From contig NZ_BCQV01000034.1 of the NCBI RefSeq assembly GCF_001552255.1, positions 1 to 52,483 of the forward strand: a stretch of DNA of 52,483 nucleotides, given 5' to 3'. Positions 5,474-22,223 of the stretch are shown one piece after another. This DNA comes from Alicyclobacillus shizuokensis NBRC 103103 (lineage in GTDB: Bacteria > Bacillota > Bacilli > Alicyclobacillales > Alicyclobacillaceae). Numbering within the stretch: the stretch's first letter is position 1; the number at the start of each line of letters is the position of its first letter. The position numbers and the translations under genes were made by a program. The notes under the pieces were generated by a model. The model worked only from the letters and a program-made list of their open reading frames with translations. It did not search any database and had not been told where the DNA came from.

Positions 5474-6241
5474 GTGTTGGGGCGTCTACAGGACAGGGTG
5501 GCGGTGGTGACCGGCGCGGCCCGTGGTATCGGCGCGGCCACCGCGAAGCGCCTGGCGGCGGACGGTGCGAAGGTGGCGGTGTTGGACCTGCGCAAAGAAG
5601 CCTGCCAAGACACGGTGAACGCTATTTCAGCTGCCGGCGGCCATGCGCTGGCGGTTGGGTGCGATGTCCGCGACGCACAGCAGGTGGAAGCCGCGATGCA
5701 GCAGGTAGTGGCTCGTTGGGGCCGGCTCGACATTCTCGTCAACAACGCCGGTATCATCCGCGACAACCTGTTGTTTCGGATGAGCGAGGACGATTGGGAT
5801 ATGGTCATGAACGTCCATCTCAAAGGCGCGTTCCTGTGCAGCCGCGCCGCGCAGCGCTACATGGTTGAGCAGCGCTACGGTAAGATTGTCAACACGAGCA
5901 GCACCTCGGCCCTCGGCAATCGGGGACAGGCCAACTATGCGACCGCCAAAGCGGGCCTGCAGGGGTTTACACGCACCTTGGCGATCGAACTGGGGCCGTT
6001 CAACATCAATGTCAACGCCGTGGCGCCGGGGTTCATTGTGACTGATATGACGCGCGCAGCGGCGGAACGCGTCGGCATGAGCTTTGAGGAGTTTGAGCGG
6101 GCTGCCATCGAGCGGATTCCGCTGCGCCGTGCGGGGAAGCCGGAGGATGTGGCGAATGTGGTGGCGTTTTTGGTCAGCGATGAGGCGAGCTACGTCTCGG
6201 GCCAGGTGATCTACATCAACGGCGCGCGCCCGCAGGGATGA
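5474..6241 (+). CDS. FabG-type short-chain dehydrogenase (3-oxoacyl-ACP/CoA reductase)
   Basis: A 255-residue classical SDR. The NAD(P) motif TGAARGIG is at residues 13-20, NNAG at 90-93, and the active site is Ser142/143, Tyr155, Lys159 (NYATAKAG). The ending VSGQVIYINGARPQG is FabG-like. GTG start at 5474 behind GAGGGGGA. The stop overlaps the next frame, and the two downstream genes form a MaoC-type dehydratase pair, so a role in reducing 3-oxoacyl thioesters to (R)-3-hydroxyacyl substrates is likely. It is probably not the housekeeping fabG, because acpP and fabD are not alongside. Carrier (ACP or CoA) unknown. Confidence 0.85.
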   Translation: MLGRLQDRVAVVTGAARGIGAATAKRLAADGAKVAVLDLRKEACQDTVNAISAAGGHALAVGCDVRDAQQVEAAMQQVVARWGRLDILVNNAGIIRDNLLFRMSEDDWDMVMNVHLKGAFLCSRAAQRYMVEQRYGKIVNTSSTSALGNRGQANYATAKAGLQGFTRTLAIELGPFNINVNAVAPGFIVTDMTRAAAERVGMSFEEFERAAIERIPLRRAGKPEDVANVVAFLVSDEASYVSGQVIYINGARPQG

Positions 6242-6273
6242 GCGTGTACCGTGGGGACGAGGAGGAGATGGAC

Positions 6274-6723
6274 ATGGGGGCCGACAGGCTGCGCCCGTTT
6301 CTTGGGAAATCATCGGATCCGGTAAGAAACGAGGTGGAGAAACGGGCCATACGCAAGTTTGCGCGGGCCATCGGATCGAACAATCCTCTTTATCTGGACG
6401 AGGAGTACGCTCAGCGCAGCCGCTACGGCCGCTTATTGGCGCCGCCGACGTTCAGTCGCACTTTCGACTACGGATCGATACCCGGGCTTGATTTTCCCCG
6501 TGACGGGTTGTTGCACGGTGAACAGGCGTACGAGTATTTCCGGCCGATTCTGGCTGGGGATACGGTCTATTGCTCCATGGAACTGACCGATGTCGTCGAA
6601 AAGCAGGGCCGTTCGGGAGCGATGACGTTGGTCGTGTTTACCTATCGGGTCTTGAGCGAGGGTGGAGAACTGTTGGAGCGTTCCCGTTCCACCCTGATTC
6701 GCAGGGGACAGGGGGAGGAATGA
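6274..6723 (+). CDS. HadA-like MaoC-fold dehydratase subunit (non-catalytic)
   Basis: A small hot-dog protein of the MaoC N-terminal (FAS1-like) type. VEKRAIRKFARAIGSNNPLY and LLAPPTFSRTF are typical of the HadA half of heterodimeric (R)-3-hydroxyacyl dehydratases. The position where the catalytic half has D-x4-H reads SNNPLYLDE, with no His, so this subunit probably only shapes the substrate tunnel. I chose ATG 6274 because GGAGGAG lies 6 bases upstream; an earlier in-frame ATG at 6238 overlaps the SDR stop but lacks spacing. The product is 149 residues. The stop overlaps the start of the partner subunit, implying coupled translation and a stable pair. Confidence 0.8.
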   Translation: MGADRLRPFLGKSSDPVRNEVEKRAIRKFARAIGSNNPLYLDEEYAQRSRYGRLLAPPTFSRTFDYGSIPGLDFPRDGLLHGEQAYEYFRPILAGDTVYCSMELTDVVEKQGRSGAMTLVVFTYRVLSEGGELLERSRSTLIRRGQGEE

Positions 6724-7142
6724 TGGGGACCAGGTTTGCGCGTGGTGAGACGATAGGGCCCGTGAGCATGCCGCCGGTGACGCGGATTCAACTTGTCCAA
6801 TACGCGGACGCTTCCGGCGATTTCAATCCGATTCACACCGTCGACCAGTTCGCCCAGGCAGTGGGCCTGGGCGGTGTCATTGCCCACGGGATGCTGACCA
6901 TGGCCTTTGTCGGGGAAATGCTCACGCAGGTTATCGGCGAAGCCGGCGACTTGCTCCAGTTTTCGGTGCGCTTTACGGATATGGTGCGTCCCGGGGATGT
7001 GGTGACGTGCCAGGGACGGATTGAACGCGTGGAGATCCGCGACGCATGGGAGATTGCGGAGTGCGACGTGTCCGCCGCCGTAGCCTCCGACCGTACGGTG
7101 GTGCAGGGGAAGGCGGTGTTCCGCGTTCCGCATGCCACCTAG
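6723..7142 (+). CDS. HadB-like MaoC-fold dehydratase subunit (catalytic)
   Basis: A 139-residue hot-dog protein with the MaoC hydratase signature YADASGDFNPIHT followed by GGVIAHGMLTMAF. The Asp and His of D-x4-H are present, so this is the active subunit. It should hydrate or dehydrate (R)-3-hydroxyacyl thioesters together with the preceding HadA-like subunit, on substrates supplied by the FabG-type SDR upstream. The ATG at 6723 overlaps the previous stop, with GGAGG four bases upstream; ATG 6720 is an equally readable start. The arrangement is like mycobacterial HadA-HadB, where the dehydratase acts in long-chain elongation. Here the substrate chain is unknown. Confidence 0.82.
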   Translation: MGTRFARGETIGPVSMPPVTRIQLVQYADASGDFNPIHTVDQFAQAVGLGGVIAHGMLTMAFVGEMLTQVIGEAGDLLQFSVRFTDMVRPGDVVTCQGRIERVEIRDAWEIAECDVSAAVASDRTVVQGKAVFRVPHAT

Positions 7143-9106: not shown

Positions 9107-9967
9107 TTAGGGTTCCGTACTATACAGGAAGCGCCCCTCCTGCCACACGGCCCGCACTTTGCCCGCATCCAGAAGCCGTTGCACGTGCGCCAGCAGTGTT
9201 CGTCGCGCGACCCTTTCCACGCCGGCAGGCAGCGAATCGCCGTAGATCCGTTGCCGCAGTTCTCGAATACCGAGCGGCCTTTGGGAGACCAAAGAGAGAA
9301 TCTCCGCCTCGCGCCGAAGCCGCCGTTCTTTCGTCTGCAGGGCGGCTGCACGCGCGTCCAGCGTCGGACCGTGTCCGGGGCCCGCGACGGAGCAGCCGCT
9401 CTGCGCGATGGCTGTGAGCGCGGTCAGGTAGTCGTCCATGTGCCCGTCCGGCGGTCCAATCCATACCGTCCCCGCGCCGGACAGGTGGTCTCCGACCAAG
9501 ATCACTCCATCCGCCGGGACTTCGACATGCAGGTGGCCGTGTGTGTGACCGGGCTGATGGCGGATGATGACAGACAGTTCCGCGAGTTGGAGCTGCGCCG
9601 GCGTAGGCTGAAGCAACTCCGGGGGCACGCCGAGCGCTTGTCGGGCGGGCGGATGGTCCAATGGGTGGAGGTGGATGGGAACTTGCCACTGGGCCGCCAG
9701 CCGGGGCAAACCCGCGGTGTGATCCACATGGTGGTGGGTGGCGATGATCTGCAGGCGTTGGACGCCCAGGTTGCGCAGGAATTGTGTCAGCCACGACAGG
9801 TGACGCTCCTCGGTTGTGCCCAGGTCCACCAGTAGGCAGTCGTCGCCGGTCGCGATTACGTACGTGTTGGTATGATCAAGGGGCGGCAGGGTGGGAGTCG
9901 GAAATGGCACTTGCCAGACGTGCTCCGATACACGCACCGGGACCGGATTGGATTCTTGAACGGGCAA
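9107..9967 (-). CDS. MBL-fold metallo-hydrolase with C-terminal winged-helix-like domain
   Basis: The metallo-beta-lactamase signature ATHHHVDHTAGL (H-x-H-x-D-H) is near residues 76-87. The other metal ligands lie in HQPGHTHGHLHV, LVGDHLSG and AGPGHGP. After about residue 200 the sequence becomes helical and basic (KERRLRREAEIL...RRTLLAHVQRLLDAGKVRAV), as in LACTB2-like hydrolases that end in a winged-helix domain. TTG start at 9967 with GAGGAGGGAG upstream. It probably hydrolyses a thioester or phosphodiester; substrate not predictable. 286 residues, apparently intact. Confidence 0.85.
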   Translation of the reverse strand: MPVQESNPVPVRVSEHVWQVPFPTPTLPPLDHTNTYVIATGDDCLLVDLGTTEERHLSWLTQFLRNLGVQRLQIIATHHHVDHTAGLPRLAAQWQVPIHLHPLDHPPARQALGVPPELLQPTPAQLQLAELSVIIRHQPGHTHGHLHVEVPADGVILVGDHLSGAGTVWIGPPDGHMDDYLTALTAIAQSGCSVAGPGHGPTLDARAAALQTKERRLRREAEILSLVSQRPLGIRELRQRIYGDSLPAGVERVARRTLLAHVQRLLDAGKVRAVWQEGRFLYSTEP

Positions 9968-15779: not shown

Positions 15780-15868
15780 GAGGATGTTGTGCGCTGTTTG
15801 GTCAGGCGAGGCACGACACTTCAGAGACGTTGATCATGACGGTTCGTCATTGTAAGGGGAGTTATACG

Positions 15869-17128
15869 TTGACATCATCGGCTAGGATAGTGGTAACGGG
15901 ACTGGGGGCTGTCACGCCGCATGGAGTGGGAGTTGAACCCTTTTGGAACGGAATCATCCAGAATCGCTCCGCAGTGCGCACCACAAAGGACCCGGTGCTT
16001 GCGCCCTGGGCACCTGTGGTGGCCGACGTACCGGATTTCGAGCCATCTGACTTTCTCTCCCGGAAGACGGTCCGGGATACAGCTCGGTTCAGTCAGATGG
16101 CGTTGGTGGCGGCCATGGAGGCGGTGCGTGACGCAGGTTTGACTGCCGATGAGGGCTGGAATCCCGGGACGAGTCCGGACAGGACCGGGGTTTTCATGGG
16201 TACGAGCTTTGGTTCCATTCGCAACATGGACGATGCCGCTACGGAGCTGGCGAGGGACGCACTGGCACGCGTGGAGCCGCGGTTGGTTTCCAAGTCCATC
16301 CCGAACGCGGCCGGCAGCTCGGTAGCGATTCATTTCAATATTCAAGGGCCTGTGCTCACCTACACAACGGCCTGCGCCTCCTCGGCCAATTCGATTGGCG
16401 AGGCGGCCAGTTGGATTCAAAGCGGCCGCGTGGATGTGGCCTTGGCGGGAGGCAGCGATTGTCTCTTTGCCTCCACACTGCTCGCGGGCCTGCGCGCTTC
16501 GGGGGCGCTGGTGAGCCACGGCCCGGACGACCATTCGCGTTGGTCGCGCCCGTTCGACATCGACCGCTCGGGCATGGTGATGGGAGAAGGCGCGGCCATC
16601 TTGGTCTTGGAGCCTTTGGAGCGGGCGTTGGCGCGTGGGGCGCACATCTACGCGGAGTTGGTCGGGTACGGCACATCGAACGATGCCTTCCACCAGATTG
16701 CCCCGCATCCGGAAGGAATCGGGGCGATGGCGGCGATGCGGATGGCCCTGGCGCAGGCGGGGGTGCAACCGGCAGACATTGATTACATCAATGCCCATGC
16801 CACTTCCACCAAGGCGGGGGATACGGCCGAGATTAAGGCGCTGTCGGCACTGTTCGGCGAAGCACTCGACCATATCGCGGTCAGCTCCATCAAAGGTTCC
16901 ATTGGCCACCTGCTGGGAGCGGCGGGAGGCGTGGAGAGTTTGGCCTGCGTGAAGGCCTTGGAAACGGGATGGCTGCCGCCGAACCTGCACTGTGACCATC
17001 CCGAGCCCGGGACACCCAAGTGTCTGGTTCAGGAGGCGCGCCCGCAGGCTATCCGCTACGCGCTGAGCAATTCGTTTGGGTTCGGTGGTCAGAATGGCGT
17101 TTTGTTATGGAAACGGTACGAGGAATAA
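15869..17128 (+). CDS. Beta-ketoacyl-ACP synthase II-type (FabF-like)
   Basis: Condensing enzyme of fatty-acid elongation. The full Cys-His-His triad is present: Cys169 in TTACASSAN, His310 in NAHATST and His347 in KGSIGHLLGAAGG, with Lys342. The ending SNSFGFGGQNGVL is standard. TTG start at 15869, with AAGGGGAG seven bases upstream, gives MTSSARIVVTGLGAVTPHG; a TTG at 15830 would add an unlikely leader. 419 residues. It stands alone, away from fabH/acpP/fabD, and converges on the IpdAB-like operon. It may be a second KAS II with special chain preference rather than the housekeeping one; that is inference. Confidence 0.9.
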   Translation: MTSSARIVVTGLGAVTPHGVGVEPFWNGIIQNRSAVRTTKDPVLAPWAPVVADVPDFEPSDFLSRKTVRDTARFSQMALVAAMEAVRDAGLTADEGWNPGTSPDRTGVFMGTSFGSIRNMDDAATELARDALARVEPRLVSKSIPNAAGSSVAIHFNIQGPVLTYTTACASSANSIGEAASWIQSGRVDVALAGGSDCLFASTLLAGLRASGALVSHGPDDHSRWSRPFDIDRSGMVMGEGAAILVLEPLERALARGAHIYAELVGYGTSNDAFHQIAPHPEGIGAMAAMRMALAQAGVQPADIDYINAHATSTKAGDTAEIKALSALFGEALDHIAVSSIKGSIGHLLGAAGGVESLACVKALETGWLPPNLHCDHPEPGTPKCLVQEARPQAIRYALSNSFGFGGQNGVLLWKRYEE

Positions 17129-17200: not shown

Positions 17201-17947
17201 TCACACCATGGTCAATCCGCCGGAGACGGAGAGCACCTGTCCCGTGATCTGAGAGGCTGCACCGCTGGCCAAGAACACGATAGCTTCCGCCACGTCCCGT
17301 GGCTCGGCAATCTTCCGCAGGGGAATGCGGCGTATCATCTTGTCAATCAGCTTCTGTGCGTCTTCATCTTCGCTGTTGACCGCCAGGATGCGCGTGCGCG
17401 TGGGACCAGGGGAGACGCAGTTGACTCGAACGCGGTATCGCGCTGTCTCTTGGGCAATGGATTTGGAAAACGCCACCACACCGCCTTTGCTGGCCGCGTA
17501 TACCGCTTCGCCCGCCATGCCAACGCGCCCGGCATCGGACACCACGTTCACGATGCTACCAGATTCGGCTGCCACCATATCGCCCAATACCGCCCGCGTT
17601 GTGTAGATGACACCCCACAGGTTGGTATCGACAACGCGTCTCCAGTAGTCGGCGTCCTCGTCAAGGAACCGGGACGTCAGGGTGTAGCCGGCGTTGTTCA
17701 CCAAAATGTCGACGGTGCCGAACCCCGCCGCCAGTTGCTGATAGGCTGTCTTGACCTGCTCTTCACTGCCGACATCGACGGTCTGTCCGAAGACCCGTCC
17801 ACCGAGGGCCGAGACCGCCTTCTGCACGCTGTCCGCGTGCAAGGCCCAGATGGCGACTTCGTATCCCCGTTCCAGGAACAACTCGGCGGCCGCAAAGCCG
17901 ATGCCCTGGGCTCCTCCGGTGATGAGAACCCGTTTCTTCCTTGCCAT
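17201..17947 (-). CDS. BadH-like SDR (2-hydroxycyclohexanecarboxyl-CoA dehydrogenase-type)
   Basis: A 248-residue SDR with ITGGAQGIG at 9-17, NNAG at 84-87, Ser137, Tyr150 and Lys154. The stretch SDAGRVGMAGEAVYAASKGG and the ending ITGQVLSVSGGLTMV are very close to what I recall of BadH, the NAD-dependent 2-hydroxycyclohexane-1-carboxyl-CoA dehydrogenase of Rhodopseudomonas benzoate degradation. Predicted product: a cyclic beta-keto acyl-CoA. ATG 17947 overlaps the stop of the IpdB-like gene (TGATG), so translation is coupled. Last gene of the operon. Many SDRs are annotated loosely, so the substrate ring is a hypothesis; the operon context supports it. Confidence 0.75.
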   Translation of the reverse strand: MARKKRVLITGGAQGIGFAAAELFLERGYEVAIWALHADSVQKAVSALGGRVFGQTVDVGSEEQVKTAYQQLAAGFGTVDILVNNAGYTLTSRFLDEDADYWRRVVDTNLWGVIYTTRAVLGDMVAAESGSIVNVVSDAGRVGMAGEAVYAASKGGVVAFSKSIAQETARYRVRVNCVSPGPTRTRILAVNSEDEDAQKLIDKMIRRIPLRKIAEPRDVAEAIVFLASGAASQITGQVLSVSGGLTMV

Positions 17948-18807
17948 CAGCCGAGTTTCCCCAATCGCGGCCAGGCGGCATGCAGTGCCTGGCGCTCCCT
18001 TTCGTAGATGCTGACAAACCGCTCGGCGGCTTCGGGCCCAGAGAGAAGCTCCAGCTTGCGGACCTCGAGCGGATCGGCATCGCGGATAATTTGCACGTCT
18101 TCCTCAGTCGGGGGTTCTGTCACCGGTATGGAGCTGGGAGCATGGATCTCAAAACCGCTCTTCTCCTGCACTTCCTCCAACGTGACCCCGGGATGCAGGG
18201 AGCGGACGGCCATCGTGCCGTCGGGACCGGTGAAGTCGAACACGCCCAGGTCGGTTACCAGGACGCTCGGGGCGCCATGCTCTCCCAGCGTAGCATCCCG
18301 ATCCGGTCCCGTGCCGGCGCCGCTGCGAAAATCGACCTGTTCCACGACCGTGCGCCGGCTGTGCGTCAGCACGTAGTAAAAGATCTGCGACAGGTGGCTC
18401 GTATCCTCCGGGATACCGCGCGAACCGACCATTGCCACCTTGGGCTGGTGCCAGTCGCCGATCACGCTGATGTTCGTGTTCCCGTGCCGGTCAATCTGTG
18501 CCGGATTGATCCAGATGCGAAAACGGTCGGTGAAGATGGCGTCGAAAATCTCCTCCATGGTCAAGGGGATGCCGCGCTGTGCGTCGGTGAGAAACTGACC
18601 CAAACTGAGCGTGGGCATCGGCGTGACCTCCATCCCTGATTCCGGCGTGGCCAAAACGGCCAGGTCGGGCGCGTAGCGCGCCTTGGCCAACAGTGCGGAC
18701 AATGCCCCGAAGGCCGTGACCGAACTGACCATGACTTCGCCGCTGAATTGGCGTGCCATGGTGGTGATGAGGAACTCGTCCAATGCGTACCTCTCATCCA
18801 GTGGCAT
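17947..18807 (-). CDS. IpdB-like CoA-transferase-fold subunit (ring-cleaving hydrolase beta subunit)
   Basis: A 286-residue beta subunit of the CoA-transferase superfamily that resembles IpdB of Mycobacterium more than acetate/3-oxoacid CoA-transferases. Shared stretches as I recall them: IDRHGNTNISVIG, VGSRGIPEDTSH, VTDLGVFDFTGPDGTM and RSLHPGVTLEEVQ. IpdAB hydrolyses a C-C bond in the last ring of cholesterol (COCHEA-CoA) instead of moving CoA. Class I CoA-transferases carry a catalytic Glu in this subunit; I see no S-E-N-G-type motif here. ATG 18807 with AAAGGAG seven bases upstream. Works with the IpdA-like subunit 36 bases upstream. Confidence 0.75.
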   Translation of the reverse strand: MPLDERYALDEFLITTMARQFSGEVMVSSVTAFGALSALLAKARYAPDLAVLATPESGMEVTPMPTLSLGQFLTDAQRGIPLTMEEIFDAIFTDRFRIWINPAQIDRHGNTNISVIGDWHQPKVAMVGSRGIPEDTSHLSQIFYYVLTHSRRTVVEQVDFRSGAGTGPDRDATLGEHGAPSVLVTDLGVFDFTGPDGTMAVRSLHPGVTLEEVQEKSGFEIHAPSSIPVTEPPTEEDVQIIRDADPLEVRKLELLSGPEAAERFVSIYERERQALHAAWPRLGKLG

Positions 18808-18843
18808 CGTGATTCTCCTTTCCGGGAGGGTGTGCCCTTGATC

Positions 18844-19707
18844 TCAAACCTTCAAGCGGGCGAGCAGTGCCTCGACGCCGCCCTGCCGTTCAAGGTAGCG
18901 GGATTGATCCGTGTAGATGTATTGATCCGCATACGCGCGCCACGCATCGTCGTTGGCCGAGTACCTCAGGTAGTCCTGCAGGTGGCGCAGGTCCGCTCGG
19001 TAGTCGGGTGCGCAGCCGGTGGGATGCGCGCCCCACGGGAGCTCGACGACGCCGGTGGTATGCACGCGCAGGATCTGGACGTCGCGCCCGTAACGCTGCA
19101 GCTCGTCGGAGGAGATGATGCGCTCGCACGACATATACGTCCGGCGCGCCGCCTTCGCGCAAAGCACATCCACGTGGCCATCGCCAAGGATCACGCCGTT
19201 GCCTTTGGCGTCCGCGTAATTCACATGGATGAGAGCGACGTCCGGCTTGAGGGCGGGCACCGCGACCAACTCCTCGCCGTGGAACGGGTCTTTGAAGCGC
19301 CGGAAGGAGGTGTTGACCGACAGCACGTCGGTAGCCAGCCCCGCGTGGGTGGGGAGGAAGGGAACCCGCTTGATGGTGGCATCCAGCCCGGCCATCACGG
19401 TGTATTCGGTCCACTCCTCGAAACGGAGCGCCTGTTGTTGACGGGCGCGGCGAAAGTGGGGGGCGAGCCCCAAAACCTCAAAGCCGACGAACGCGTAAAT
19501 GACTTCGGATACAGATCCCGTGCCAATCAGCAGGTCCACATCCGGCCCGCCGACATCGACGATAAGGCGCAGGTCTTTCACGGAGCTGCGCGCGAGTGCT
19601 CGTATCAAGGCCATCGGCTTGCGGGAGAGTGACGAGCCGCCGATGGCCACGGTGGAGCCATTCGGAATGTCGGCCACCACCTGGTCAACGGTCATCCGCT
19701 TGTCCAA
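18844..19707 (-). CDS. IpdA-like CoA-transferase-fold subunit (ring-cleaving hydrolase alpha subunit)
   Basis: The alpha subunit pairs with the IpdB-like protein. IpdA-like features: a start of the form MDKRMTVDQVV, a glycine-rich IAIGGSSLSRKPMAL-like loop (GGSSLSRKPMAL), VGGPDVDLL, RTYMSCERIISSDEL and the ending WGAHPTGCAPDY. Glu101 in EEWTEYTVMAGL falls where IpdA keeps a Glu thought to act in hydrolysis. I chose TTG 19707 because an almost perfect Shine-Dalgarno (AAGGAAGGTGATC) lies just upstream and the N-terminus then lines up with IpdA; a GTG at 19728 is in frame but lies in front of that site. 287 residues. Preceded by a hairpin at 19741-19778. Confidence 0.75.
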   Translation of the reverse strand: MDKRMTVDQVVADIPNGSTVAIGGSSLSRKPMALIRALARSSVKDLRLIVDVGGPDVDLLIGTGSVSEVIYAFVGFEVLGLAPHFRRARQQQALRFEEWTEYTVMAGLDATIKRVPFLPTHAGLATDVLSVNTSFRRFKDPFHGEELVAVPALKPDVALIHVNYADAKGNGVILGDGHVDVLCAKAARRTYMSCERIISSDELQRYGRDVQILRVHTTGVVELPWGAHPTGCAPDYRADLRHLQDYLRYSANDDAWRAYADQYIYTDQSRYLERQGGVEALLARLKV

Positions 19708-19740
19708 TCTGATCACCTTCCTTGGCACACTGAAATGCCG

Positions 19741-19778
19741 GCTGTTGCAGGGACGTGACAGGTCTGGCCTGCAACAGC
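19741..19778. repeat. 11-bp perfect inverted repeat inside the IpdAB-like operon
   Basis: GCTGTTGCAGG (19741-19751) and CCTGCAACAGC (19768-19778) with a 16-base loop. It lies in the largest gap of the operon, between the FabL-like SDR and the IpdA-like gene. In RNA it makes a stable hairpin without a T tract: a processing or differential-expression site, or an operator. Confidence 0.6.
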
Positions 19779-19799
19779 CATAGGCCGTCGAGCAGCCGG

Positions 19800-20597
19800 T
19801 TACGGGCGCAAGTCTTTGGTGGTCTCAAACGGCCCCGAGGTATGGGTCAGTCCACCGTCTACTCGTATCACCTGACCGGTGATGAATCGGGACAGGTCGC
19901 TGGCCAAAAAGACGGCGACGTCGGCCACGTCCTTAGGTGTGGCCAACCGGCCGAGCGGGGTGTGTCGACTGACCTCGCGCTCAAACTGCGCGTACGAATC
20001 GCCCATGTAGTAGCGGGCGGAATCGGTTGCCACCACGCCTGGAGCCAACGCGTTGCAGGTGATGCCGCGCGGCCCCAGTTCATAGGACAGGTAGCGAGTC
20101 AGGGTCTCCACGGCCGCCTTGGCCGAGCCGATGGATCCGTACAGCGGCAGGGTGAAGTCGGTACCGTGCCCGGTCACGGTGATGATGCGGCCGTCCCGAC
20201 CCTGCATGAGCGGTACCGCCAGTTGGACGGAGGTTACGAGCGCGTTGATCAACAGACGATAGGTCCGGTCGATGTGGTGCGGCTTCATCTGCAGCACCGG
20301 CTTGAACGCGGTGGCGGCGGCGTTGGCCATGAAGATGTCGAGCCGGCCGTAGGTTTCGCCGACCACCTGAAACATCCGCTCGATATCCTCGCTGGATTCC
20401 AAATCGGCCTGGACCGCTACGCTGCGCCGGCCCAGGGATTGAATCTCTCGCACAACCTCCTGTGCCAGGTCGGCCTGTCGATTGTAATGCACCACCACGT
20501 CCGCACCCGCCTGCGCCATAGCGACAGCAGAGGCGCGGCCAATGCCGCGTGAACTCCCAGTGATCAGGGCAATCTTTCCAGCCAGCAGGTCGTTCAT
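19800..20597 (-). CDS. FabL-like SDR (enoyl reductase-type active site)
   Basis: A 265-residue SDR: ITGSSRGIG at 12-20, NAAATAFKPVLQM near 92-104, and Tyr153 followed by Lys160 (PLYGSIGSAKAA), a Y-x6-K spacing. That spacing and the NAA-x-x-x-KPVLQM region are those of FabL/FabI enoyl-ACP reductases rather than FabG (Y-x3-K). The usual SDR Ser is replaced (VTGHG). It may therefore reduce a C=C bond of an enoyl thioester, perhaps of a cyclic substrate. The ATG at 20597 overlaps the stop of the upstream SDR (ATGA). FabL itself works on ACP; the context here favours CoA, as inference. Confidence 0.72.
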   Translation of the reverse strand: MNDLLAGKIALITGSSRGIGRASAVAMAQAGADVVVHYNRQADLAQEVVREIQSLGRRSVAVQADLESSEDIERMFQVVGETYGRLDIFMANAAATAFKPVLQMKPHHIDRTYRLLINALVTSVQLAVPLMQGRDGRIITVTGHGTDFTLPLYGSIGSAKAAVETLTRYLSYELGPRGITCNALAPGVVATDSARYYMGDSYAQFEREVSRHTPLGRLATPKDVADVAVFLASDLSRFITGQVIRVDGGLTHTSGPFETTKDLRP

Positions 20598-21385
20598 GAG
20601 GTCAAACCCTTTCCAAGCCATTCTCCACCGTCAATCACGAACACCTCGCCGTTGACAAAATCCGCGTAGGGAGAGAGCAGATAGGTGGCAGCGTTGGCGA
20701 TTTCGGACGGATCGGCAAAGCGGCCAACTGGGATCTTGGCTTTCAGACGCGCTTCGTCGGCCGGATCGGCCCACAATGGGCGTGCGCCTTCGGTGTCGGT
20801 CGGACCCGGGCAAACGGCGTTCACACGGATGCCGTAGTGCGCCCACTCGACAGCCAGGGTGCGCGTCATGGCGACCACTCCCGCCTTGGCTGCCACCGAG
20901 TGCACGGTCCGCGGGCCCCCTGTCCACGCGTAGCTGGCGACGATGGAGAGGATGCGGCCGCCGTTTTTCGACTCGATCATCTTGAGACCGGCCGCCCGCG
21001 TGCAGTAAAAGGTGCCATTGAGCACGGACCCCACAACGGCGTTCCAGCCGTTGACGGAGAGCTTCTCGCTGTCCACGATGAAGTTCCCGGCCGCGGAGTT
21101 GACGAGCATGTCCAGCCGGCCGGTTTTCTCCACCGCTGTGTTCATCAAGTGTTCGACCTGCTCCGGATCGCGGACGTCGGTCGGTACGGCGAACGCTTCG
21201 CCCCCGGCGCTCTGGATTTCCGCCACGGCCTTCTCCAGGTGTTCGGGATTGCGACTGGCCAGGGCCACGCGCGCTCCCAGGTTCGAAAGATATTTGGCGA
21301 TGGCGAAACCGATGCCCGTGCCGCCGCCGGTGATGACGGCGGTCTGGCCACGGAACGTGTCATTGGGCAACATGGGTTTGTGCAT
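20594..21385 (-). CDS. 2,4-dienoyl-CoA reductase-like SDR
   Basis: A 263-residue SDR of the DECR type: ITGGGTGIGFAIA at 18-30, NSAAGNFIVDSEKLS at 96-110, LNGTFYCTRA, and VHSVAAKAGVVAMTRTLA (Lys167), where the classical Tyr is missing as in peroxisomal and mitochondrial dienoyl-CoA reductases. PGPTDTEGA and the NGEVFVIDGGEWL ending agree. It should reduce a conjugated dienoyl-CoA with NADPH. ATG 21385 with GGGGA about seven bases upstream is a better start than upstream in-frame codons, which would give a basic, unrelated leader. It overlaps the next gene by 4 bases and follows the crotonase by 43. Confidence 0.8.
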   Translation of the reverse strand: MHKPMLPNDTFRGQTAVITGGGTGIGFAIAKYLSNLGARVALASRNPEHLEKAVAEIQSAGGEAFAVPTDVRDPEQVEHLMNTAVEKTGRLDMLVNSAAGNFIVDSEKLSVNGWNAVVGSVLNGTFYCTRAAGLKMIESKNGGRILSIVASYAWTGGPRTVHSVAAKAGVVAMTRTLAVEWAHYGIRVNAVCPGPTDTEGARPLWADPADEARLKAKIPVGRFADPSEIANAATYLLSPYADFVNGEVFVIDGGEWLGKGLTS

Positions 21386-21428
21386 ATGAGTTTCCCCTTT
21401 CCGATGTGTTCTCCCGCTGGGTGACGCT

Positions 21429-22223
21429 TCATTGACCTGTGAAGTGGGGTTCACGTTTTTCCAGAAACGCCCTGACCGCCTCTTGGTGATCTTGTGTCTT
21501 CGCGAGCCGGTCTTGGGCTTCCCGTTCAAATACCACGGTTTCTTCCAAGGAATGGGCCACTGCCAGGTCGTACAGGCGGCGGATTTCCGCGTACGCCCGA
21601 GTCGGACCAGCCGCTAGCTCGGCGAGCAGGGTGCGCGCCTCTTCCCACGCCTCATCCAGAGAGGCGTTGACTTTGGCCGCGAGCCCCAGGGCAACGGCTT
21701 CCTCAGGCGTCAGGGCGCTGCCGCGCAGCGTGAGGGACAGCGCACGGGCGTGGCCGATGGCACGGGCGAGCAGGAAGGTGACCGCCGTGTCGGGGGCGAG
21801 CCCCACTTTCACGAACACCGGCGAAAGATTCGATTTGCTGTGCAGGATGCGAAAGTCTGCGGCCAACACCAACGCCAGGCCGCCGCCGACAGCCGCGCCG
21901 TTGACCAGAGCCACAGTGGGTTGAGGTAACGAGCGCAGGCGCCGAACAATCGGTATGTACCCCTCCTCGACGACGCGCCCCAACTCGGGACCGTTGGTCT
22001 CGTAATAATCGGCCAGTTCCCGCACATCCTGGCCGACGCAAAAGGCGCGTCCGGCTCCCGTTATGAGCACAGCCCGAATATTCGGGTCTTTGGCCACCCG
22101 GTCCAACGCGTGCAGCAACTCGCGGCGCATGGTTTGCGTCAGCGCGTTCAGAGCGTCTGGACGGTTCAGGGTCACGGTGGCGACAGCGCCATCGACCTGA
22201 TATTGAATTTCCTGATAATCCAT
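21429..22223 (-). CDS. PaaG-like crotonase-fold isomerase
   Basis: A 264-residue crotonase-fold protein with the oxyanion loop RAFCVGQDV and GAAVGGGLALVLAADFR. The two glutamates that enoyl-CoA hydratases need are absent: the sites read GGGLALV and PVFVKVG. An Asp is present at 145 (GLAPDTAVTF), the position of the catalytic Asp in PaaG-type isomerases. So double-bond or ring isomerisation is more likely than hydration. ATG 22223 with GGGGAGG six bases upstream; first gene of the six-gene operon. It closely resembles neither EchA20 nor BadI. Substrate inferred: a cyclic or conjugated enoyl-CoA. Confidence 0.78.
   Translation of the reverse strand: MDYQEIQYQVDGAVATVTLNRPDALNALTQTMRRELLHALDRVAKDPNIRAVLITGAGRAFCVGQDVRELADYYETNGPELGRVVEEGYIPIVRRLRSLPQPTVALVNGAAVGGGLALVLAADFRILHSKSNLSPVFVKVGLAPDTAVTFLLARAIGHARALSLTLRGSALTPEEAVALGLAAKVNASLDEAWEEARTLLAELAAGPTRAYAEIRRLYDLAVAHSLEETVVFEREAQDRLAKTQDHQEAVRAFLEKREPHFTGQ

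Follow-up and report, generated by a model that had tools for sequence, protein, structure and literature searches.

A conserved six-gene operon with an IpdAB-like pair as a candidate source of the omega-cycloheptyl fatty acid starter in Alicyclobacillus and Sulfobacillus

The 52,483-nucleotide stretch of contig NZ_BCQV01000034.1 from Alicyclobacillus shizuokensis NBRC 103103 (the window, meaning the whole stretch analysed) carries on its minus strand, from 22223 to 17201, six intact open reading frames (ORFs) that form a compact operon with overlaps of four bases and one base and intergenic gaps of 43, 71 and 36 bases. Read in the direction of transcription, this cassette encodes a PaaG-like crotonase of 264 residues (21429..22223), a DECR-like short-chain dehydrogenase/reductase (SDR; 20594..21385), a FabL-like SDR (19800..20597, overlapping the preceding gene by four bases), an IpdA-like alpha subunit with the CoA-transferase fold (18844..19728, with a GTG start), an IpdB-like beta subunit (17947..18807) and a BadH-like SDR (17201..17947, overlapping the IpdB-like gene by one base). 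The coordinates, the six-gene operon with overlaps or gaps below 100 bases and the Bacillota/Alicyclobacillus setting given in a preliminary description of this DNA all hold, and its gene identities stand, by family scans and solved structures, as labels of the best-matching families. All NCBIfam matches listed (the best 25 per protein) score below their curated cut-offs, and the labels therefore name relatives, not functions: the crotonase scored 225 bits against PaaG (TIGR02280, cut-off 345; best PDB match 2ej5), the DECR-like SDR 289 bits against 2,4-dienoyl-CoA reductase (PRK07677, NF005811; cut-off 318), the FabL-like SDR 238 bits against FabL (cut-off 328) and the BadH-like SDR 232 bits against BadH (TIGR03206, cut-off 431), and the IpdB-like protein had no NCBIfam match in the scan. 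A promoter scan across the window was at shuffle level (one found, shuffle mean 1.3), and a terminator scan was slightly above it (seven found, shuffle mean 4.5, sd 2.1).

Residue patterns in the four single-subunit proteins were conserved among their homologues. The DECR-like SDR has N99, G103-N-F and S166/K170, with Ser/Lys where Tyr/Lys would stand, in all 24 homologues scoring above 300 bits, a pattern that we take to be of the dienoyl reductase type; it is probably a dienoyl-CoA reductase acting on ring C=C bonds. Y161-x6-K168 of the FabL-like SDR, presumably the FabI/FabL-type spacing of an enoyl reductase, was retained in 17/17 homologues above 200 bits, and Y150-x3-K154 of the BadH-like SDR, presumably a ketoreductase pattern, in 27/27 above the same score; these two are probably an enoyl reductase and a cyclic beta-ketoacyl-CoA reductase respectively. 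The crotonase, in which Asp145 is conserved in 23/23 homologues above 160 bits and position 117 is not Glu, a combination we regard as that of double-bond isomerases, is probably a ring double-bond isomerase. With SDRs of the dienoyl-, enoyl- and ketoreductase types beside a PaaG-type isomerase, and neither an acyl-CoA dehydrogenase nor a thiolase found among the six genes in the family scan, the enzyme set looks reductive.

The alpha and beta subunits matched IpdAB best among solved structures (160 and 111 bits; closest chains IpdA 6co6 and IpdB), ahead of glutaconate CoA-transferase (GCT; GctAB, 1poi; 103 and 70 bits) and of a third family, which we take to be AibAB (90 and 56 bits). A tree of concatenated IpdA and IpdB sequences with 53 rows (37 from the clade of cassette-type pairs, seven canonical Ipd, plus GCT-like and Aib rows) placed the 37 clade rows as sister to the canonical Ipd rows (support 100/100, the clade itself 99/99); the GCT-like and Aib rows fell outside both. 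Long branches in this tree make the exact point of joining uncertain. Glu108 of the alpha subunit, which aligns with a position occupied by Glu in 6co6 but by Ala in 6coj and presumably corresponds to the catalytically relevant Glu105 of IpdA, is Glu in the window and in 37/37 clade loci checked; GctA has Gln there, and one GCT-like row (L085; L and G numbers are our handles for loci and genomes) also has Glu. In the beta subunit, by contrast, canonical Ipd rows have TDG where the clade has Glu56-Ser-Gly (ESG), found in the window, in 29/29 clade loci (L010–L038) and in 8/8 further loci (L068–L075). Alignments by phmmer, hhalign and one MAFFT run pair this motif with the ESG of GctB, but it follows a two-residue insertion and a larger MAFFT run sets it one column off; the AlphaFold model of the beta subunit was poor (mean pLDDT 54) and was not used. 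In the part of PMC5380842 that concerns these residues, RHA1 IpdB has Gly57 at the place of Glu54 of GctB. By its sequence, then, the pair is a relative of IpdAB, but not IpdAB by the defining beta residue.

The cassette genes recur side by side in Alicyclobacillus and Sulfobacillus and also in uncultured Bacillota. Among the 29 clade loci outside the window (L010–L038), taken from the named genome collection, 11 had all six genes in one run and nine had five in one run, lacking the FabL-like SDR (the Sulfobacillus type), a recurrence from which we conclude that the cluster is not due to chance; the others were a ketosynthase-SDR2-IpdA-IpdB-SDR3 arrangement (3/29), one locus cut by a contig end and five with the IpdAB pair alone. 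In one of the last (L021), a metagenome-assembled genome (MAG) labelled S. benefaciens, the pair lies at L021:10010-11744 and the crotonase and three SDRs sit together elsewhere in the same MAG (L061:7497-10683); the pair of L021 lies upstream of a copper-type P-ATPase gene. Two Myxococcales matches (L039, L040) group with canonical Ipd in the tree and share its motif. A clade member was present in 4/398 genomes of a phylum-wide sample (a 45% match with an internal stop in G414 being excluded from the count), IpdB at 77–100% identity in six of 61 genomes (the window's and 60 relatives; two other matches were short, at 36%), and, among 26 genomes near S. harzensis, clade IpdA (65–75%) in eight, only distant matches (≤31%) in four and none in 14. 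The closest named relatives of the window's IpdA-like gene are those of A. kakegawensis (97%) and A. herbarius (95%).

Across six named genomes this distribution agrees with that of an unusual lipid. In its list of Alicyclobacillus fatty acids, PMC5023266 gives omega-cycloheptane for A. cycloheptanicus, A. herbarius, A. kakegawensis, A. shizuokensis and A. tengchongensis, and omega-cyclohexane for A. acidocaldarius, A. acidoterrestris and others; 11-cycloheptanoyl-undecanoate is reported as the main fatty acid of S. harzensis, shared, among the Sulfobacillus type strains compared there, only by S. acidophilus, as a lesser component (PMC8489842). A. kakegawensis and A. herbarius carry all six genes (L010, L011), and S. 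harzensis DSM 109850 (L020) and S. acidophilus DSM 10332 (G096, L059; plasmid contig 100% identical to CP003180.1) the same five, with no FabL-like SDR adjoining in S. harzensis. With the IpdB-like gene as marker of the cassette in non-carrier genomes, no match was found in A. acidocaldarius (G026) or A. acidoterrestris (G036), in the 11 sampled genomes of their genus, both included, or in A. curvatus, A. sp. SO9 and A. mengziensis. Across the six named genomes with a known phenotype, the four carriers are thus cycloheptyl makers and the two non-carriers cyclohexyl makers (Fisher P = 0.067).

We consider it reasonably probable that the seven-ring product of partial phenylacetate breakdown is turned by the cassette into cycloheptanecarboxyl-CoA, which would serve as the starter of omega-cycloheptyl fatty acids, and we favour synthesis of a ring starter over ring opening because the named carriers of known phenotype, one MAG aside, make these acids. 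As set out in the passages of PMC7497051 on this branch, a seven-ring CoA ester that arises as a side product of the phenylacetate pathway is the most likely precursor of omega-cycloheptyl fatty acids and is shared by tropone natural products, its ring closure being held spontaneous. In the route that we propose, PaaK and PaaABC(D)E/PaaG would convert phenylacetate to oxepin-CoA, hydrolysis of which would give a beta-keto-acyl-CoA semialdehyde, and ring closure of the latter 2-hydroxycyclohepta-1,4,6-triene-1-carboxyl-CoA. The DECR-like and FabL-like SDRs would then reduce ring C=C bonds, with the PaaG-like isomerase shifting double bonds into place, the BadH-like SDR would act as reductase of the 2-oxo group, a HadAB-like or some other dehydratase would remove water, and a last enoyl reduction would yield cycloheptanecarboxyl-CoA to prime fatty acid synthesis. 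The route resembles the branch from phenylacetate to tropone (PaaZ/Knoevenagel), which would supply the seven-ring precursor, but differs from it as described in that source, where ring closure is regarded as spontaneous and the products are tropones rather than saturated rings (PMC7497051).

Consistent with a phenylacetate origin, PaaA was found in 28/29 genomes with clade loci L010–L038 and in neither of the two Myxococcales genomes. In the 398-genome phylum sample, which overlaps with the set of clade-locus genomes, PaaA was present in 11 genomes overall and in three of the four that were clade-positive (Fisher P = 6e-5, or 0.0017 without the window's genome). The 3.6-Mb genome to which the window belongs has PaaA, PaaC and PaaD on other contigs, and, elsewhere and both under their cut-offs, a PaaK-like ligase with, near it, a PaaG candidate that at 276 bits is better than the cassette crotonase, for which a role as the genome's sole PaaG was accordingly rejected. 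The only MaoC domain above cut-off in this genome was in the window's HadB-like gene, and no candidate oxepin-CoA hydrolase was identified. The PaaK-like and PaaG-like genes (L095:7285-14725) immediately precede those of a 2-oxoacid dehydrogenase complex (E1 alpha, E2), which might supply phenylacetyl-CoA. Eight clade genomes (G071, G066, G065, G068, G069, G075, G084 and G456) have two PaaA genes above the family cut-off, one of which might be dedicated to lipid synthesis.

Several observations weigh against this starter synthesis. All functions and pathway steps given here are inferred. The agreement of phenotype with genotype covers only six named genomes in two lineages, and the makers among them came to light because the survey set out from cassette hits. 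The MAG labelled S. benefaciens holds all six genes, in two places, and the S. benefaciens type strain is given without the cycloheptyl fatty acid in the comparison of PMC8489842; moreover, two Yellowstone Alicyclobacillus isolates had 11-cycloheptylundecanoate beside a cyclohexyl acid, as stated in the portion of PMC10562698 that deals with them. Within the family, PaaA was found in 6/6 cassette-bearing genomes and also in 25/55 cassette-free ones; with PaaA this frequent in the family, the association is a weak one there (P = 0.024, or 0.052 when the window's own genome is left out). PaaA was not found in one clade genome (that of L034, 1.5 Mb) or in G434, a 97% complete genome of equal size, probably identical or closely related, that does have the IpdA-like gene; G338, of the genus of G434, has PaaA but no IpdA-like match. 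A neighbouring FabL-like SDR is missing from Sulfobacillus-type cassettes, four of the 26 Sulfobacillus-side genomes (G094, G103, G107 and G119) have the BadH-like SDR but no clade IpdA, and HadA is generic, present in 53/61 relatives.

Within the starter route, the pair most likely acts in ring closure or CoA transfer. A plain acyl-CoA:carboxylate CoA-transferase of the glutaconate type, for example one activating a ring acid, is compatible with starter synthesis and is a real possibility, although we stop short of calling it probable: the pair shares its fold family with GctAB and its beta ESG aligns with that of GctB, but overall it is nearer to IpdAB than to GCT in both score and tree, it retains the alpha Glu108 (as does the GCT-like L085), and the spatial position of the ESG, given the insertion and the shifted column, is unproven. 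Nor does phenylacetate call for a transferase with a PaaK-like ligase in the genome, which also weakens the idea that the pair is required for phenylacetate activation. More tentatively, the pair may be the ring-closing enzyme, catalysing an intramolecular aldol/Knoevenagel condensation of the beta-keto-acyl-CoA semialdehyde, that is, the reaction of steroid IpdAB reversed. IpdAB acts by retro-aldol hydrolysis, as described in the mechanistic part of PMC5380842, and the proposed precursor would form in the opposite direction, through aldol addition with loss of water, so that ring closure by the pair would explain the presence of this family; such a closure would use an aldehyde where IpdAB chemistry has a ketone. 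Judged on residues alone, an ESG-type CoA-transferase would be about as likely as a ring closer.

The preliminary description read the cassette as catabolic instead, with an IpdAB-type hydrolase opening a cyclic beta-keto-CoA derived from cyclohexane or cycloheptane carboxylates or from steroid remnants, a reading that we find unlikely. On our reading, the description was right to assign a role on an alicyclic CoA-thioester and to guess that omega-alicyclic fatty acids are involved, but the ring-opening direction and the hydrolase chemistry are probably wrong, in view of the beta ESG, the reductive gene set and the omega-cycloheptyl acids of the named carriers. As grounds against its own reading it had named clustering of the pair with glutaconate or 3-oxoacid CoA-transferases and retention of their catalytic Glu: the beta subunit has a Glu that aligns with this residue in the alignments given above, apart from the larger MAFFT run, but the clustering is with IpdAB. 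The sister relationship to steroid IpdAB, the retained equivalent of IpdA Glu105 and the BadH-like SDR do speak for ring opening, as does the neighbourhood of IpdAB, the steroid ring C/D COCHEA-CoA hydrolase, whose loci likewise have SDRs and a crotonase; in the mycobacterial KstR2 set, as far as it is outlined in PMC5380842, two SDRs of unknown role (Rv3548c, Rv3549c) lie beside echA20-ipdA-ipdB, and in control locus L081 the next gene after the ipdB-like one is labelled paaG_1. Steroid ipd loci (L080, L081), however, have an extradiol dioxygenase, an IpdC-type flavoprotein, further crotonases, acyl-CoA dehydrogenases and a thiolase, whereas among the six cassette genes, with no genome-wide search made, there is no IpdC-type flavoprotein, EchA20, FadE or thiolase, but there are two SDRs of the C=C-reductase type; the beta subunit has ESG and not the Gly of IpdB, the crotonase is nearest PaaG and shares only 25–26% identity with the IpdAB-adjacent crotonases of L039/L040, and the hosts are Bacillota whose genomes carry PaaA and whose distribution matches that of omega-cycloheptyl makers. 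A steroid breakdown operon in particular is disfavoured by a gene set and beta motif unlike those of the control ipd loci, no whole-genome search for kstD or hsa having been made. As for the BadH/BadI pathway of cyclohexanecarboxylate, the SDR at 17201-17947 matches BadH best but falls far below its cut-off, and BadI is absent from the listed matches (best 25 per protein) of all six proteins.

Two further alternatives are improbable. Recycling or turnover, in which the cassette re-activates or degrades cycloheptanecarboxyl-CoA from old omega-cycloheptyl fatty acids, would fit the same taxonomic match, and an ESG-type CoA-transferase could re-activate free cycloheptane carboxylate, but breakdown of a saturated ring needs an acyl-CoA dehydrogenase where the cassette has reductase-type SDRs, and the association with PaaA would be left unexplained. 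We likewise give little credence to the idea that the seven-ring precursor ends in a different product, tropone-like or another cycloheptane compound, while other genes make the lipids: tropone natural products share the precursor and the clade includes uncultured lineages without fatty acid data in the literature covered, but the cassette looks reductive, no oxygenase was found among its six genes in the family scan, and the named carriers of known phenotype are lipid producers.

Fatty acid genes lie near the cassette in the window and in other loci. A FabF-type ketosynthase gene (15830..17128, plus strand; fabF 433 bits, cut-off 494) is its convergent neighbour, adjoins it also in L010–L013 and L062, and has a 42–43% identical counterpart upstream on the same strand in L026, L030 and L031; a link between this ketosynthase and the cassette is possible. 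Genes for FabG and for HadA-like (FAS1_DH) and HadB-like (MaoC) proteins, assigned by Pfam and NCBIfam scans, lie at 5474..7142 on the plus strand. HadA/HadB homologues follow the cassette in L015–L020, L035 and L038, with FabG as well in L017 and L035, and these proteins are a possible dehydratase partner; as a cassette-specific marker HadAB was rejected, given how widespread HadA is among the relatives. The HadA-like genes of G002 (C7:177824-178288) and G001 (C3:129405-129848) have internal stop codons in the match, unlike the window's copy. Sulfobacillus-type cassettes continue with a metallo-beta-lactamase-fold gene (9/9), a second DECR-like SDR (8/9) and HadA/HadB-like genes (8/9); the loci with this downstream extension are L014–L020, L035 and L038, L018 adding a TauE-like transporter, and a relative of the metallo-beta-lactamase-fold gene is also present in the window (9107-9967, minus strand).

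Omega-cycloheptyl fatty acids, known since the 1980s, mark the membranes of some acidophilic and thermophilic Alicyclobacillus and Sulfobacillus. An origin of these acids from phenylacetate was proposed earlier, without genes in the literature covered. Our search of the open-access literature, with subscription journals mostly outside its scope, found among the results listed no title or abstract start describing the genes reported here. We regard the operon as a strong candidate for the genes of omega-cycloheptyl synthesis that have been missing, and with six genes whose distribution fits, the origin of these lipids can now be tested directly. If the proposed starter synthesis is true, omega-cycloheptyl lipids would have their first gene set, seven-ring starters could be made in other hosts, and a relative of the hydrolase that opens a cholesterol ring in mycobacteria would serve a biosynthetic route; if, moreover, the pair closes the ring, a CoA-transferase fold would have switched from opening rings to making them.

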